Below, in pieces: positions 14,953 to 33,892 of a DNA stretch of 33,892 nucleotides (its first letter is position 1; each line of letters begins with the position of its first letter). Both the position numbers and the translations under genes were made by a program. The DNA is taken from IMG/VR virus record IMGVR_UViG_3300042863_000489, positions 1 to 33,892 of that record; one strand, 5' to 3'. The notes beneath the pieces were generated by a model. That model ran no database searches, was not told the origin of the DNA, and saw only the letters and a program-made list of their open reading frames with translations. The DNA is from a virus.

Positions 14953-17900
14953 TTAGGTAAGTAACCGAAGCAACTTAGACATTTGACTAGATATCTCGCT
15001 TTGGCTATAGTAGTCAGAGCCAGACATAAAACCCTTCAAATCTTTAGTTGCTATGTTGGCATCCTTTTTTCCAATTTTAGCTTCCACGCGGGTAATCATC
15101 TTGTCCATCAAATCCTGTAGCGCAGGGGGGATATCGCTAAAACGGATTTTTTGAGCATCTTGACCAAAGGCAAAAGGAAGGTTAGCAATAACCGAACCTA
15201 GCTGCCCCGCTGAGAGTCTTACATTTTCTAAAGACTCTGCATTGAGTGCTCCAGTGTCTAACCTATCAATTACGCCTAATAAATCTCCAGCAGCATTGGC
15301 TGCACCAGCGTAATCTCCTGCGTTATCGAGATTTTCTGCTTCTTTAATCTTTTTCAACGCCTCATCTGAGCCAGAATCACCTAAATTAACTTTCAACCGA
15401 GCAAGCACTTGTCGAAACTTCCCCTTGGTATCACGGGGTTGTGTTTTAGGTGTATAGGTTCCTGACTTTTCTTCGGCCTTCTGCTTGCTCTTAACTTCTT
15501 TTTTTAGTAGGTCCAACTCTTCATCGGTAAGACCTTCTAGGTCCTTCTCTGAAATCTCTATAGCAAAAGCCTCTTCAGTGTCTCCACCATTGAGTATTAC
15601 AATTTCTTCATCTAAAGGCCCTGCTTTTGGCTTAAATACGCCTTTTTCTTCTTGATAAATCTTGGTTCCAAAAGTGCTTTTATTTTCAGTAGAAGCGACC
15701 ACAGATTCAACGATTGCGATGCGCTCTCTCAGGCTAGCAACCATGGACTCTGAATCAGACGCTTCTTTCCAACTAGCTGGAATAAGTTCTTTCTTATCAA
15801 GTTGGCGAGCCATCTTCGCAATGTGACGACGAACAACTCCACGCTTTCCTGGCTTAGAACGTCCGTATGCCTGAATAGCATTACGAAGGTCATTAGCGTT
15901 ACGAATTGGGAATGAGCCATCTGGAAGAGCCTTCTTCGACTCTGCAAGTTTCATGCGTTCTTTGCGTGTGATAACAGCAAGTTCTGCATCTGAATCATCA
16001 AGCATTTGAAGCATGTATGCAGAGTCTTCATTTCTTGCTGCCTTAACTTTATTTGAAAGTTCTTCTGCCTTAATTGCTGCAGTCATTGCTTGCATACGAG
16101 TTCTAGCATCTCCTGCGGCAGCAACTAATGGTGCTTCTAACTTATCAATTCTGCTATGAAGTTCTGCGAGAGGGTCGTGCTTTAGTTGAGCAAGAACACT
16201 TGCTCCAGCAGCAACAAGTGCCATTACCTGACCTGAAGCAACGCGAGCGCGAGCAATAGGGAATCCAGGAACGTTTACCTGACACACAGCAACAAGTTCT
16301 AGAGCACCCTTGATAGGTCTCCAGTCACCTGATGGTGCTGATGCACGAAGTGAGCGAATCTGTTCTGGACTAGTTCCAGGGCGAAGTGCTCCTGATACCC
16401 AGATGCCATAAGCATCTTCTCCTGCATGAACATCAGCAACTGCGGATGCTGTGTCGTCGTAGTGACGAACTGCTTCCTGAGCAGATGCTTCAAGTCCTGC
16501 GTGACCTCCAGCAAGAGTTAATTGACCTACAGGCATATCTACACCTTCTTCAGTGCGAACAACTCCTGTATGGAAGAATGCATAATTACTCTTACTGCGA
16601 GGAGGGCGAGTACCAAACGCCATTCCAATATGGTCCACATGCCAAGCGGCAATGTGACCAAAAACTTTTCCATCATCGGTTACAGTAAGAGCAGTTGGTT
16701 TTTTCAAACCAGGGTTGTTAAACCACTCTTTAGGTGGGGTTACTGGGATTGCTCCAGCTACCATTCCGCAAGCGATGAGTGCTGAAGCATCGAGAGGATT
16801 TACTCCTTCGACGTACACTCCATCTTGAATCACTTCTTCCTCCTGCTCTAGTCCCATCTCGTCAACAAGTTCTACCTTGCATTCTTGATATGCGGGCTTG
16901 GGTACAAGAGTTACAGCCATAACTCTTGCCTTTGTTATCTTCATTTTACCTGCTCCAACTTTGCCGTCAGCATCGTCTTTAGCAGCATTCTCATGCTCTT
17001 TTGCTTCGAACATATCTAAGTCAGCAGAAACTCCACGAATGAAGCCTCCACGGACCAATCTTTCCGCTTCTTTTCCATACTCTCCAGTGTCAAAATGCCC
17101 GTAAGCATTTCCAATACCATTTTCAACTCTTTCCATCTTTGTAATTATTCCAACTACAACTGATCCTGAATGACCTTCTCCAGTCTTGATTTGCCATAAA
17201 AATGGAAGAGGGAGGTCACGAATAGTGATTGCGCCAGCATCAAACTTGCGACCATCTCCTGATTCAGTTCCTTCTGGAATTACTAGAGGGATAAAGAAAC
17301 TTGCTCCCTGATTTTCTGAAACAGGTTCCTCACCAAATACTCTTATTCGAGCATCTTCTGCTCTTGCTCTAATAGTTGCTGAAGCAATCATCGCTTCTGA
17401 AGAAACAACAAAGTCGCTACTAAAAGCATTCCTTGCCTTACCCTTCTTTCCGAAGAGTTGTTTATGTTCTTTGTCACCAGTCCAAAGACCAGTTGCTTCC
17501 TTGTGACGAAGTGCGCAATAGCCTTTTGCTCGAGGACCCATGTACTTCGAGAGTTGACGAACGCATCGTGTCCAATCACCACCAGTTCCCCAACGAATCT
17601 TTGCTGCGCCTTTACCAGTTAACCAATATTGACGTAACTCTTCAGCGTTTCCTTTATTTCTATCAGCACCGCCTGCTGCAATCATTGCAGCAACAATCCT
17701 CATATCTGATTCATCGTAGCCAGAAGATGTCATTGGTTTGATTGAATCAACTTGCTCTAAAACAGTTGCTAGTGTTTCATCATCTAGTACAACAACTGGT
17801 GGAGGTGTAGGACTGTTGAGGTCATTAAGAACTTGTTCGTTCTTCTCCCACTTCCCAGGCTTACGAATAAATGTCATAGGACTAGTAGAGTTTGTTGATG

Positions 17901-28640: not shown

Positions 28641-30004
28641 TAGTTGTCATCCTCTTCTTCTTCTGAACTTGGTAGTAAATCTGCGTCAAGACTGAGTTCT
28701 CCGTGTAGTGCTAATAGAGACGCTCTTCTAAACGGGTCTCCACCTGCACGAACTGCACGAAGCCAAGATGCTCTAATTGCATCTTCTGCTTCATACCCTG
28801 CTCCAGAAAACTCTGCCATAGCAAGGATGGCATCCTCTGGAGAATTATAGTCCTCTTTACTTCCTAGAGATATTGATAATTCTCTATCAAAGCGATACTC
28901 CTGCAGAATGTCTTCTGTTAGCTTGTTTTCGTTTCCGAGTTTTTCGCCTTCGAGAACTCCGACATCAACGACCCCATCTGGAATAACCGCGAAACGACAC
29001 TTACCTTCGTCTTCGACTTCTTGTTCGATGATTCTGCACGATCCATTACCCATGTATAGAACGCAAGAAGAGCACTTGACTCCGATTCCCTTGTATTTAT
29101 TTTCTTCGGCTGAGGCGTATCCTGCCCAAATTCCTGTGGCATCTTCATTAAACTTTCCATACTTCTCAGCGATTTCGACGAGAGCATTAGCTAGGTCTGA
29201 CTCTTCTGGAACTAAACCAGCAGCGGCAGTAATTGAGTTGTCTCTTTTTGTTGAACGAGGGTGTTTAGCTGGGAGTAAATCATTATCTGTTGTGTAAGCA
29301 GAGTTTGTTGGCTTACCTGATTTAAGAAGTTTAAGGAAAGCGTTGACACGGCCCATAGCCCACTGATTACGGTTCATTCCAGGCCGGTGAGATGTAGAAA
29401 ATGCTCCTGCGCCACGGCGATATACAGCCTTAAGCATTCCTAGAGAGGCTTTTCTACCTTCTGGTGCTTTTTCATTGTGTTCTTTGACTTTGGTAGAGAG
29501 GGTGTTTTCTGTTGCTTTACTAAATACAACTTTTCTAGTTCCAGATGCTGAACCTTTTTTATTTTTGCTAGAGCCTTTTATTTTATCTTTTTTAGGAGCA
29601 GGAGTTTGAGAGATAGTTCTTTTTCCTGCAGCAGTCACTGGGCCGCCAGCAACCCACGCACGGCAGGTGCGTGCTGATGCGCATTTGAAGTCGAAGATTT
29701 CGCAGTATCCAAGTTCTCCTGCTGCATCAATTGATTCAAACTCATCTGCGTTATCTGTTAAGCCTGTTTCAATACAAGAAAGCATCTCTGGAGTCTGAAT
29801 AAATACAGCGCAGTTACCGCAAGTTTGTTTCTTTGCAGTTTCAGCATCTACATTCCACTCTTGACCAAGTGCGTTCCAATACTCTTCGTTTGGTTCCGCA
29901 GGATTAAGAGGTCCATACATCGCAGTGTCAATTGCCTTCTTACGATTAGTAAGATTAAGTGCAATGTCCTGTGTAGCAGGAGGGCAGCCGTTAATTTCAG
30001 CCAT
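28640..30004 (-). CDS. Head-module protein with two Cys-rich modules
   Basis: 454 residues, with ATG at 30004 overlapping the portal stop (TAATG). The first Cys module has Cys62, 65, 77, 101, 108 and 114 (TCGNCAVF...GYCEIFDFKCASARTC). The second has Cys311, 314, 323 and 336 (KCSSCVLY...GSCRII...GKCRFAVIPDG). The spacing recalls HiPIP-like iron-sulfur or zinc-binding modules that occur in phage head proteins. Between them lies a phage domain about 158-250, HRPGMNRNQWAMGRVNAFL followed by DNDLLPAKHPRST. The C-terminus is acidic. The position after the portal suggests a capsid-interior or portal-associated protein. Function is unknown. Confidence 0.7.
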   Translation of the reverse strand: MAEINGCPPATQDIALNLTNRKKAIDTAMYGPLNPAEPNEEYWNALGQEWNVDAETAKKQTCGNCAVFIQTPEMLSCIETGLTDNADEFESIDAAGELGYCEIFDFKCASARTCRAWVAGGPVTAAGKRTISQTPAPKKDKIKGSSKNKKGSASGTRKVVFSKATENTLSTKVKEHNEKAPEGRKASLGMLKAVYRRGAGAFSTSHRPGMNRNQWAMGRVNAFLKLLKSGKPTNSAYTTDNDLLPAKHPRSTKRDNSITAAAGLVPEESDLANALVEIAEKYGKFNEDATGIWAGYASAEENKYKGIGVKCSSCVLYMGNGSCRIIEQEVEDEGKCRFAVIPDGVVDVGVLEGEKLGNENKLTEDILQEYRFDRELSISLGSKEDYNSPEDAILAMAEFSGAGYEAEDAIRASWLRAVRAGGDPFRRASLLALHGELSLDADLLPSSEEEEDDN

Positions 30005-31773
30005 TACTGCTCTGTTTCTGGGGCTGGCTCTGCTGGAGCTGCTGTCTCAGGGGTTGCTGTGGCTCCCTTAAGAATGTCTTCAAGCCCTGGTGGAAGCGGA
30101 GCAACAGAGGCTGCTTGTTGAGCACTGCGAACTGCTTCCATCATCTCTGGGGCAACAGTTGCAAGCATTGATTCTGTAAGTTCTGGAGTGATTGCACCCT
30201 TTTCAAACAACATACGAATTGCGATTTCATTTGATGTAGGAGCATCTGCGTTTGAGAAACCATGAGCGCGACGCCATGTCTCGTAAGAAACAGCGCCACG
30301 GTCAAATCCTGAATCTGCATCCGTTGCGCGGTCATTGCGAGTAGCAACTGCTGATGGGTCATACCAAACAACAATGCGGTCAACATCTGAAGGAGAATAG
30401 CCTTGAGCAATTAAGTATGGACGCAGGTAAACAATTGTTAGAGCATCAACAATAAGAAGCATCAAAGGCTCAATGTGCGCCTTGTAGAGTCCTTCGTCAA
30501 TCTGTAAAGCGTTTGAATACTTAACATTTGCTAAGCCAGTAACAACATCTTTAGGAACATCTAGTCCCTGAAGGATGCGCTCTAGAACACGGTCTGCGCG
30601 TTGTGCAAGTGCTGGGTCGAATGAACGCTCAAACTTAAACTGCTTAATCTTGTCACCAAGTTCAGCAGGTCCGCGAATAATAAGTGGAACAACAGCGGAT
30701 GCAGACTCTTCATCACGAATCGGAGTTGTCATCGCATCGATGAGTTGGTCTTCAAACTCGTCTTCTGCTTCTTCTGCTGTGAAACCAGGATCTGTTTGAC
30801 CATCTCCATCTTCATACGGATAGTCTGGGTCGCCTTGTGCAGCAACTGACAAACCATCTGGAAGATAAAGTGCGCCAGCGTTTAGGCGAGAGCGTGCTGT
30901 TGCACGGAACGTTCTGTTAAGAAGAAGTAGTTCTGCGCAAAGGTCTAGCAGACCGCGTATTGAAGAATCTGATTCATCAGAAAAGCGTGGATGTGAACGC
31001 CAGATGCGACCAACAAATGCGCTGGTACCTAAATGAGTTGTTGGGCCAGTATTTCCGCCACCACTTGTTTGCTCACGGCGACTTACTACGTTGTATCCGC
31101 CACGAGCATCTATAACTACTTCATCTACAGAACGAATATCCCAAGACTCTGGAATACCTGAGCCCTTACGCTCTGGCATCTGCACTAGATAACATTCGCC
31201 AGCCACCGAAAGGTTGAGTGCAGCATCTCGGAGGAGACCAGCTTGTCCACCGTATGCAGAATCAAGACGAGAAAGTGCTCGCTCTGCTGCAGCAGATAGT
31301 TGTTTATCTAAAGTTGTTGAAGAACGTACTGATGTTGGAGCCTGAGAAGGGTCATCAATTACTGCTGGAAAAATTCTGATTCGTGATACAACTGATGCAA
31401 CAAGATTGAATGCATATTTGATTTCACCAATTGCGTCGTAGTACTCCCATGCTTCTGCTTGCCATGCACTTGAAGCAGCAGAGCGGCGATTTCTAAATTG
31501 CTCTGATTCACCTTTGTCATTTAGCTTTACCTGTACCGCTGCTGCTGTAAGAGAGCGAGGTTGGTTATATGGAACTGCTTGCGCTTGATTTGTTTGAGAT
31601 AGGAATACAGATGCGGCTCCACTGATTATCGGAGCAGCTTGAGGAATTCTAGATTGTGTGCGAGAACGAGTTGTCTGCTTCGACTGTGTTTTTTTCTTAG
31701 GAGCAGATTTCTTTTTTGGCACGGAGACGGGAGTAGAGTCATTGTTTGGTTCGCTGCGCTTAAATACGCTCAC
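30004..31773 (-). CDS. Portal protein
   Basis: 589 residues. The N-terminal ~45 residues are very basic (KKKSAPKKKTQSKQ) and disordered. The core from about 100 to 510 has portal-like features: WEYYDAIGEIKYAFNLVASVVSR, then AGECYLVQMPE and NRTFRATARSRLNAGALYLPDG, then QGLDVPKDVVTGLANVKYSNALQI near 405-430 (split by natural turns), and a helical stem after it. The C-terminus is Pro/Ala-rich. The portal is the dodecameric ring through which DNA is packaged and ejected. RSLTAAA at 73-79 may be a processing site that removes the basic arm. Start and overlap with the next gene (TAATG) are clear. Confidence 0.88.
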   Translation of the reverse strand: MSVFKRSEPNNDSTPVSVPKKKSAPKKKTQSKQTTRSRTQSRIPQAAPIISGAASVFLSQTNQAQAVPYNQPRSLTAAAVQVKLNDKGESEQFRNRRSAASSAWQAEAWEYYDAIGEIKYAFNLVASVVSRIRIFPAVIDDPSQAPTSVRSSTTLDKQLSAAAERALSRLDSAYGGQAGLLRDAALNLSVAGECYLVQMPERKGSGIPESWDIRSVDEVVIDARGGYNVVSRREQTSGGGNTGPTTHLGTSAFVGRIWRSHPRFSDESDSSIRGLLDLCAELLLLNRTFRATARSRLNAGALYLPDGLSVAAQGDPDYPYEDGDGQTDPGFTAEEAEDEFEDQLIDAMTTPIRDEESASAVVPLIIRGPAELGDKIKQFKFERSFDPALAQRADRVLERILQGLDVPKDVVTGLANVKYSNALQIDEGLYKAHIEPLMLLIVDALTIVYLRPYLIAQGYSPSDVDRIVVWYDPSAVATRNDRATDADSGFDRGAVSYETWRRAHGFSNADAPTSNEIAIRMLFEKGAITPELTESMLATVAPEMMEAVRSAQQAASVAPLPPGLEDILKGATATPETAAPAEPAPETEQ

Positions 31774-31811: not shown

Positions 31812-32099
31812 CTACCGCTCTTCATGTGCAGTTAACAGGCCAGCGATTGCAGATAGAGCAAAAATTATCTCGACTACATACGTGGCTTCTGGATTAATGA
31901 TACTAGATATTTGAAGAATTGATGCGACCCAAATGCTTATACACCAAGGGCAAGTCAGGAGATATCCTAATAAAGACTTCTCTGGAGGGAATTTCTTCCA
32001 GAAGAAATTACGAGGTCTTGCTAGTAGTTCATCACGAATAATTAGCCTAGTGATTCTGTATGTAGCCAATCCCATAATTAAAAACTCTAGCGTTGTCAT
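31812..32099 (-). CDS. Small membrane protein, DUF1360-like
   Basis: 95 residues. I chose the ATG at 32099, which overlaps the upstream stop as TAATG and has GGAG just before it. A longer frame from 32174 would lie inside the upstream gene. Two hydrophobic segments are visible (LLGYLLTCPWCISIWVASIL and the Val/Ile-rich C-terminal helix), with a basic stretch before them. The motif LTCPWCISIW is characteristic of DUF1360, a family of small membrane proteins that is frequent in phages next to the portal. Function unknown; it probably inserts into the host membrane. Confidence 0.75.
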   Translation of the reverse strand: MTTLEFLIMGLATYRITRLIIRDELLARPRNFFWKKFPPEKSLLGYLLTCPWCISIWVASILQISSIINPEATYVVEIIFALSAIAGLLTAHEER

Positions 32100-32461
32100 T
32101 ATTCTCCGTCCGTTTGTGACATTAAAATGCTTCCATATGGGCTCCAACTGCGTAGGCGTGAGCCACATCCGCAATTCTCGTCCTTTCGGAAAGCAATCAT
32201 CTTTCCAGATTCAGTAATCACCCTATGAACCTTTTCTTCCTTAGAGTAGAAGGTTATATTTTCACTAAAGATAAGTTTTGGGCCAGAAGGGTCGTCAACA
32301 ACAACCATAATCTTTTCCTCGGTAGCAATAATCCTACATCTGTCTAACTTTCTAGAGCCTTTCGGCGCACCGCCTCGTGGAAGTAGTTCATTTATATCCT
32401 CTAGCGAGCCTGGCTCAGCAATGGTAAGTACTGCTGGGAAGATATCTGCTCTGATTCTCAC
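32099..32461 (-). CDS. Small protein with CGCGSRLRSW motif, unknown
   Basis: 120 residues. The start is a GTG at 32461, whose GTGA overlaps the upstream stop; GGAG lies six bases before it. The protein is basic to neutral and predicted beta-rich, with two Cys in the NCGCGSRLRSWSPYG stretch near the C-terminus. I have seen this ending in small actinophage proteins encoded near the DUF1360 gene, but no function is known to me. The Cys pair could bind metal. Confidence 0.65.
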   Translation of the reverse strand: MRIRADIFPAVLTIAEPGSLEDINELLPRGGAPKGSRKLDRCRIIATEEKIMVVVDDPSGPKLIFSENITFYSKEEKVHRVITESGKMIAFRKDENCGCGSRLRSWSPYGSILMSQTDGE

Positions 32462-32784
32462 TTATTCTCCGCATGTATCGGTGAAACATAGAATTCTTGC
32501 CAACCCAGATAGGATTTGGCTAAAGATATCGGAATAAGGATAGGATTTTCTCTATTAGATATCTCTGGAGTCAACAAAAAGTCTATTTCTATAGAAGTTG
32601 TTGCTACTGGACAGCTTTTCCAAGATTGAATTGCTTTCAAAGAGGCTAAAGACATCGCAATAGGATGAATTGATGCTTCAGATATCAAAGTCTCAAGCGT
32701 GCGAGCGTTAGGGCGTCCCTTTTGCTTCTTTGGATTAGCCCAAACTGCTACAACAAGGTCTTCACTGCTTGTGGGTTTAACCAT
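32458..32784 (-). CDS. Small hypothetical protein
   Basis: 108 residues. I place the start at ATG 32784, six bases after AAGGA, and it overlaps the upstream gene by 8 bases. A longer frame from 32835 would lie inside that gene. The N-terminal part is basic (NPKKQKGRPNARTLETLI). The middle is helical and the C-terminus is beta-rich. I recognise no family. Its neighbours are a helix-turn-helix protein and the small CGCGSRLRSW protein. Confidence 0.55.
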   Translation of the reverse strand: MVKPTSSEDLVVAVWANPKKQKGRPNARTLETLISEASIHPIAMSLASLKAIQSWKSCPVATTSIEIDFLLTPEISNRENPILIPISLAKSYLGWQEFYVSPIHAENK

Positions 32785-33277
32785 TAGCGATCCTTCTTGC
32801 CATAGCACGATAAGTAACTCCTGCGGCTTGAGCAATAGAGGCTGCGGGGACTCCTCGGTGATAAAGGTCTAGAGCAATCTCTGTAAGTTCTCTATTTGCC
32901 TGTGCTAGGGGGCTGGAAGAAGGTGTTTTAGACCTATAACGCTTCGACAACTCTGCCAACTGGCCAATATGAGCAACCATATCAAGAGGAACTTCTGGAG
33001 AAATGCTACGCATGCGAGGGGAAGACGCAAGCGGTGCGGAGGAGGTCAATGATTTAGCTGGAGGAGAGGGAATTGTTCGTGTTTGCTCCTGATTAGCAGC
33101 GTTCTTGACCCAGAAGTGAACTGTGGACTTTGGGCGAACAGGTTTGAGGGATTTAGCAATAACTCCCAAAGACCAACCTGCTTCCCAAAGGGCGCGGAGG
33201 CGTCCTGGAATAAGTTCTGGAGACATGGCAGAGATAAAACGAACTTCGTCGTCTGGTAATTTCTGGCTATGTTTCAC
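32777..33277 (-). CDS. Double helix-turn-helix protein (regulator or small terminase candidate)
   Basis: 166 residues, GTG start at 33277 with a weak ribosome site (TAGG). No better start is evident; the ATG at 33226 has none. Two helix-turn-helix-like parts are visible. One is near residues 18-56 (RLRALWEAGWSLGVIAKSL). The other is near 125-165 (IALDLYHRGVPAASIAQAAG, then VTYRAMARRIANG). A disordered Ser/Pro-rich linker joins them. It is the first gene of the rightmost unit, next to a repeat region and close to the portal. It could be a small terminase subunit that recognises packaging sites, or a late-operon regulator. I cannot decide between them. Confidence 0.6.
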   Translation of the reverse strand: MKHSQKLPDDEVRFISAMSPELIPGRLRALWEAGWSLGVIAKSLKPVRPKSTVHFWVKNAANQEQTRTIPSPPAKSLTSSAPLASSPRMRSISPEVPLDMVAHIGQLAELSKRYRSKTPSSSPLAQANRELTEIALDLYHRGVPAASIAQAAGVTYRAMARRIANG

Positions 33278-33313: not shown

Positions 33314-33468
33314 GAGTGTTGAAGCAGCGGAAGCATTGGACGAATCGTTAAAATATATGAACATTACCGTTTTTTGCTTTTGGCCTGCGAGACGGCTTTG
33401 CATGGGCGCGGGGCTTTTCCAAATCGTTTCCGGATAATTTATTTTATTTTTGCTTAGTTTTTATTTTC

Positions 33469-33548
33469 CTGAGAACTGGCTGAGAGTCTAGTATCTTAAA
33501 GTTTTCTGAGAAATACTCCTATAATCCAACCCTGAGAGTTATCTGAGA
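33469..33548 (+). repeat. Five CTGAGA motifs with symmetric spacing
   Basis: CTGAGA starts at 33469, 33480, 33506, 33532 and 33543. The intervals are 11, 26, 26 and 11 bases, a symmetric layout close to whole helical turns. The hexamers are direct repeats. This could be a protein-binding array, although hexamers alone give weak statistical support. Confidence 0.4.
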
Positions 33549-33559
33549 GGTATAAAGAG

Positions 33560-33715
33560 TAAGTTACTAGTGAGTAACATAGGAAATGAGTAAGTTACTA
33601 GTGAGTAACATAGATACATAGTTAAGTTACTAGTGAGTAACATAGATACATAGTTAAGTTACTAGTGAGTAACATAGAAAGTAGTAGTGAGTAAGTTACT
33701 AGTGAGTAACATAGG
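33560..33715. repeat. Five-copy iteron-like dyad array
   Basis: The 16-bp core GTTACTAGTGAGTAAC occurs without change at 33563, 33594, 33626, 33658 and 33695. Each core is flanked by TAA on the left and ATAG on the right, so 23 bases are conserved. Start-to-start distances are 31, 32, 32 and 37 bases. Arms GTTACT and AGTAAC form a dyad with a 4-base centre. The layout suits binding of a dimeric protein, as at replication or partition sites. Confidence 0.85.
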
Positions 33716-33764: not shown

Positions 33765-33842
33765 ATGACTGGTTATGACTGGTCATGACTGGTCATGACT
33801 GGTCAGGTAGTTATGACTGGTCATGACTGGTCATGACTGGTC
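33765..33842. repeat. Seven 10-bp tandem repeats, ATGACTGGTC
   Basis: Four contiguous units (33765-33804; the first ends in T) are followed by the 8-base spacer AGGTAGTT and three more units (33813-33842). The 10-bp period places every unit on nearly the same face of the helix. TGACTGGTCA is close to palindromic (TGAC-TG-GTCA). AGGTCTAT flanks the array at 33734-33741 and 33843-33850. Confidence 0.85.
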
Positions 33843-33892
33843 AGGTCTATCTACAGGCTAGGGGGTGACTAGGTAGGTGTTATAGACATTAC

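Follow-up and report, generated by a model that had tools for sequence, protein, structure and literature searches.

Phage operators that are read by host regulators exist, the LexA boxes in CTXphi being one example, and repeated sites in phage DNA can also belong to replication, as in the O iterons of lambda, which are tandem dyad units beside AT-rich DNA. On the host side, the regulators GlnR and MtrA are widespread. The GlnR box of S. venezuelae reads GTnAC-n6-GTnAC (PMC10704036), the MtrA site reads GtnAcC-n5-GTnAcn (PMC13189361), and FdmR is described, in papers that cite Dong 2021 (PNAS), as a TetR-family fatty-acid repressor. The locus described below resembles the CTXphi boxes in placing a site of chromosomal type in a phage control region, but differs from them in that the site forms an array and its motif is metabolic rather than SOS-type. 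It lies close to the end of the window, by which we mean the whole stretch of DNA analysed, an entire IMG/VR fragment of 33,892 bp. On balance, comparison of the sites leads us to favor the reading that they are operators of a host-type acyl-CoA/beta-oxidation regulator, which the phage would use as a switch or a decoy.

The dyad array and its control region

The array is built from the 23-nt unit TAAGTTACTAGTGAGTAACATAG, within which lies the dyad GTTACT-AGTG-AGTAAC. Exact matching of the window returned exactly five exact copies between 33560 and 33714, identical to one another at 23/23 positions.

33560 to 33582, no strand: dyad unit 1, TAAGTTACT-AGTG-AGTAACATAG, exact match
33591 to 33613, no strand: dyad unit 2, exact match, its 32-bp period identical to that of unit 3
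33623 to 33645, no strand: dyad unit 3, exact match
33655 to 33677, no strand: dyad unit 4, exact match
33692 to 33714, no strand: dyad unit 5, exact match, 37 bp after unit 4

The five perfect dyad iterons announced in the earlier note are therefore all present and in their places. Base composition predicts 0.003 exact dyads for the whole window against the five observed, and a search of the window for further copies found no exact dyad outside the array. The units start 31, 32, 32 and 37 bp apart, so that the step of about 32 bases, or three helical turns, that had been described holds for the first three intervals and fails for the last. Similarly, the units are identical as had been said, but the spacers do not vary throughout: the 32-mers starting at 33591 and 33623 are 100% identical, and because of this full identity we regard part of the array as a recent tandem duplication. 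The array had also been placed at the edge of the structural block, yet this edge is an accident of assembly, because the window simply ends there and five relatives (L012, L014, L019, L020 and L022) continue straight through the region.

In these longer relatives the array is seen to lie inside a non-coding region of ∼0.65 kb between two divergent operons. One of them, in the minus sense of the window, begins with HTH1 and continues through two small ORFs and a DUF1360 gene to the portal and virion genes; the opposite one holds small ORFs together with HTH2, the other double-HTH protein. The neighbors of the array are lysis and virion genes. Read toward HTH1, an array of TGACCAGTCA comes first, the GTTACT-N4-AGTAAC array, the AT-rich DNA and a conserved element present once follow, and a promoter-like motif comes last.

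33766 to 33843, no strand: second array: seven decamers, each a palindrome of the form TGACTGGT(C/T)A (TGACTGGTCA), in 10-bp steps with one 18-bp step
33427 to 33477, no strand: AT-rich stretch between array and conserved element, ∼76% AT
33365 to 33434, minus strand: conserved element in non-coding DNA, CCGGAAACGATTTGGAAAA...GCCGTCTCGCAGGCCAAAAGC, present once in each genome
33283 to 33312, minus strand: predicted promoter of HTH1, leaderless-type: TGTACG followed by TGTACGATA, with its end a few nt upstream of the start codon
32777 to 33277, minus strand: HTH1, 166 aa, with a linker between its two helix-turn-helix domains; the portal/virion operon begins with it
32458 to 32835, minus strand: conserved ORF of 125 aa, downstream of HTH1
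32099 to 32461, minus strand: conserved ORF of 120 aa, homologue of Cece gp61 and of a DSL-LC01 protein
31812 to 32174, minus strand: DUF1360 protein (Pfam PF07098, E 8e-17)
30004 to 31773, minus strand: portal protein (phrog_776, E 5e-108)

Multiple dyads in non-coding DNA between divergent transcription units are the arrangement expected of an operator array. The predicted HTH1 promoter motif is kept in nearly all aligned relatives and, with the pattern used, is unique in G001, G003 and the window. No promoter was recognised overlapping the dyads in the clade of the window, and the leftward promoter lies ∼380 bp away (L012). The element at 33365-33434, which follows the pattern CCGGAAACGATTTGGAAAA...TCTC(A/G)CAGG(C/T)CAAAA, keeps its place at the start of the virion operon even where other genes have been inserted ahead of HTH1, and is a candidate packaging site or late promoter. 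Several TCTCAG/CTGAGA repeats occupy 33469-33549, between the dyads and the AT-rich stretch.

The second palindrome array went unmentioned in the earlier note. Single copies of its palindrome occur at the same place in many relatives, where they precede the GTTACT dyad, often by 35-56 bp. The transcript of the leftward operon begins with a hairpin just before the ribosome site (L012:8486-8572, with equivalents in L020, L023, L040, L043, L062, L065, L076 and L092); when the sequences are folded individually, the stem has 6-9 bp and a 5-nt G-rich loop, and its sequences diverge widely while the pairing is kept.

Conservation of the dyad among related phages

Relatives of the window include the Actinomycetia phage DSL-LC01, which is metagenome-assembled (PMC10611076), and the large Microbacterium phages Cece, Pumpernickel, Big4 and Zooman. 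In 19 viral relatives (1.33 Mb) we found 14 exact GTTACT-N4-AGTAAC sites, and each is located upstream of HTH1 at a distance of 0.3-0.5 kb. When the comparison was widened to the ∼71 relatives with at least 700 bp of upstream DNA, 22 had an exact dyad there and 33 had one with at most one mismatch, and the upstream dyad persists down to 57% HTH1 identity. The arms are fixed among relatives and the four central bases vary (CACT, CGCT, CATG, AGGT, CCCC and others). Copy number ranges from 0 to 5, falling from 5 to 3 to 2 inside a clade of 97-99% identity, and some relatives have no dyad at all. Conserved arms, a free spacer and a conserved position across relatives are again the properties of an operator array, and fixed arms with a free N4 and a copy number of 0 to 5 are operator behavior. 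The view of the earlier note that binding by a protein is under selection is in our judgment well supported by these comparisons.

The full site extends beyond the core to a 22-bp dyad with TA ends. In phage sites gathered regardless of their flanks, TA adjoins the core on the left in 19/22 and on the right in 12/22, against a background of 0.084, although binomial values for these flanks overstate the case because the phages behind the 22 contexts are related, which makes the contexts non-independent. The site also recurs at other positions and in other arrangements. The lineage of L092, L095 and L096 has a dyad array of its own with 15-bp steps, and the TerL operons of related phages are preceded by the site too (L017, L154 and L141/L151/L153). 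In the TerL-bearing L141 the same 22-mer sits where the -35 of a TATAAT promoter is expected, a geometry that supports control of phage promoters by a host regulator. The terminal region of Rhodococcus phage Dorin (PQ114736) has three GTTACT/CTACT-N4-AGTAAC dyads within 49 bp; it is like the window in carrying several dyads in gene-free DNA, but its spacing is ∼16 bp and no other DNA similarity between the two was found. The Arthrobacter phages Mimi and Atuin have no site, although Arthrobacter chromosomes do.

The matching motif in bacterial chromosomes

A scan of GTDB genomes with TAAGTTACTNNNNAGTAACNTA placed the same 22-bp dyad, TA flanks included, in bacterial chromosomes. Among the matches listed, 72 of the 80 loci belong to Actinomycetota (assigned by title), mostly Arthrobacter relatives, Nocardia, Mycolicibacterium and Nanopelagicales. 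The chromosomal form TA(A/T)GTTACT-N4-AGTAAC(A/T)TA, seen in Arthrobacter, Nocardia, Mycolicibacterium and some Nanopelagicales, is identical to the phage site in core, spacing and TA flanks over the 22 bp; the difference is one of number, with one site per promoter in the chromosomes and five in tandem in the phage. The genes that flank the chromosomal sites cluster in function, comprising acyl-CoA dehydrogenases, thiolases beside RNase D, and etfB, and further an EtfD-like oxidoreductase, methylmalonyl-CoA mutase, 3-hydroxybutyryl-CoA dehydrogenase, crotonyl-CoA reductase and acyl-CoA carboxylase. The phage site and this chromosomal motif, which is enriched ahead of acyl-CoA genes, have the same sequence.

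A search with the core only in ten host genomes, which had been selected for already having a full site, gave 28 sites; the reversed control gave 1. The neighboring palindrome ATGACYRGTCAT gave 2 sites against 9 for its control in the same ten genomes, and TGACYRGTCA was accordingly rejected as a second host motif; because this palindrome is without host enrichment, the host likeness is particular to the GTTACT dyad. Within the phylum the full 22-mer occurs unevenly: in the order of G020 it is present in 7 of 119 genomes, and of 296 genomes drawn across the phylum only the centre genome has it, so a phylum-wide host motif was rejected as well. No TetR gene was found beside the chromosomal sites with a crude pattern, a result that says little, and a literature search by the letters of the motif gave unrelated matches only. 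The MftR operator was considered as a known counterpart and rejected, its sequence being different.

Given the sequence, position and conservation of the phage sites, and since host acyl-CoA genes are preceded by the identical motif, we infer that one protein binds both phage and host sites, and likewise what that protein may be and what its binding may do. Because the phage sites share the sequence of the chromosomal acyl-CoA/beta-oxidation operator, a symmetric dimer of the host regulator would be expected to bind the phage units, most likely an acyl-CoA-responsive repressor; FdmR-type TetR repressors could be its kind, a guess made solely from the genes that the chromosomal sites flank. Actinobacteria are the putative hosts of the large phage represented by the window. 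Five operators clustered in the control region between the HTH1/portal/virion operon and the small HTH2 operon could then tie phage transcription to the lipid status of the host, or the multiplying copies of the phage could pull the regulator away from host genes. A bolder proposal, which we regard as doubtful, is that the array might be a natural sponge, in which five operators per genome, multiplied by replication, titrate the acyl-CoA/beta-oxidation repressor of the host and bring about lipid burning during infection, the same trick having been acquired by separate actinophage lineages. If one protein reads both sets of sites, there is a testable link between the control of virion genes in uncultured actinophages and the lipid metabolism of their hosts, and the motif outlines a candidate acyl-CoA regulon in actinobacteria.

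Other readings of the array

The earlier note had left the array among four candidates (replication origin, partition site, repressor array and terminase recognition site), and an array of operators appears to fit best; it had also called HTH1 the obvious ligand. It is conceivable, although we think it rather unlikely, that the dyads belong, as operators, to a regulator which the phage itself encodes (HTH1, HTH2 or a further protein) and which serves both divergent operons, with the host likeness due to convergence. An operator beside its own regulator is the commonest arrangement in phages, in L020 and G147 the region has a double-HTH gene on either side, the two being related, and L017 has sites upstream of both HTH2 and TerL. 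The proteins themselves fit less well. HTH1 is predicted to fold into two HTH domains with a linker of low confidence between them (mean pLDDT 85, pTM 0.45), and comparison with the PDB gave no significant match by sequence or by fold. Its homologues have weak Terminase_5-type/HTH_38 matches (best E 7e-5) and weak RepB-type HTH matches, and those of HTH2 have weak sigma-70 region 4 and HTH_3 matches; neither predicted pattern would lead one to expect a symmetric dimer on a 22-bp dyad. HTH1 is unsupported as the ligand because its two HTHs, on one chain, differ from each other whereas the site is perfectly symmetric, because many relatives retain HTH1 and yet have no site, and because the match to the chromosomal motif of some actinobacteria spans 22 bp with TA flanks. 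HTH2 was rejected as an obligatory ligand, since it is absent from several records that have the site (it was not found in G010, G011 or G014).

A host-type regulator of acyl-CoA genes must also be set against the OmpR-family regulators GlnR and MtrA, whose boxes the sites could be, linking the phage to the nitrogen or cell-cycle state of the host. This we consider improbable. The phage unit, read as GTTAC-N6-GTAAC, satisfies GTnAC-n6-GTnAC and is close to the MtrA site, but as a longer, symmetric, TA-ended 22-bp dyad with a mostly S-R-Y-S centre it is unlike a tandem repeat. Moreover, the genes beside the chromosomal matches that we inspected are acyl-CoA genes, among which we noticed no nitrogen gene and no cell-cycle association, and the full site is patchy whereas GlnR and MtrA are widespread.

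That the units serve as iterons in a phage origin of replication, where the neighboring AT-rich stretch would be the unwinding element, is very improbable. As in lambda, tandem, directly repeated dyad units adjoin AT-rich DNA (here an AT-rich 50-mer). Unlike the lambda O iterons, however, the array is outside any replication module and lies among lysis and virion genes, cumulative GC skew, the check that had been proposed, has no extremum at the region in the three large relatives G001, G003 and G014, many relatives have only 0-2 units, and the same site stands upstream of host metabolic genes.

A cos or pac site, at which terminase would recognise the DNA ahead of the virion operon, has the slimmest chance of all, for although the array is upstream of the portal operon and the homologues of HTH1 show the Terminase_5-type matches given above, a packaging end is disfavored because the contigs of relatives run through the array and TerL, preceded by an HTH gene of its own, lies ∼72 kb away in G003 and ∼53 kb away in G014, and further the copy number is not conserved and the single-copy element at 33365-33434 would suit the role better.

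HTH1 was rejected as a small terminase on the weakness of its Terminase_5/HTH_38 matches, the PDB result and the different HTH ORF that precedes TerL. That ORF (G003:1012-1485; G014:29030-29488) encodes an HTH protein of 152-157 aa directly upstream of TerL, with an HTH module related to HTH1 and HTH2, and is a candidate small terminase. In Cece (OP068343) the same HTH2-like match occurs at both 16970-17497 and 185404-185931, a duplication that points to a long (∼18 kb) terminal repeat ending shortly past the HTH2-like gene. Homology of the Cece TerL (L098:8540-10837) to other TerL proteins skips residues ∼116-385, and the protein appears to be interrupted, as by an intein.
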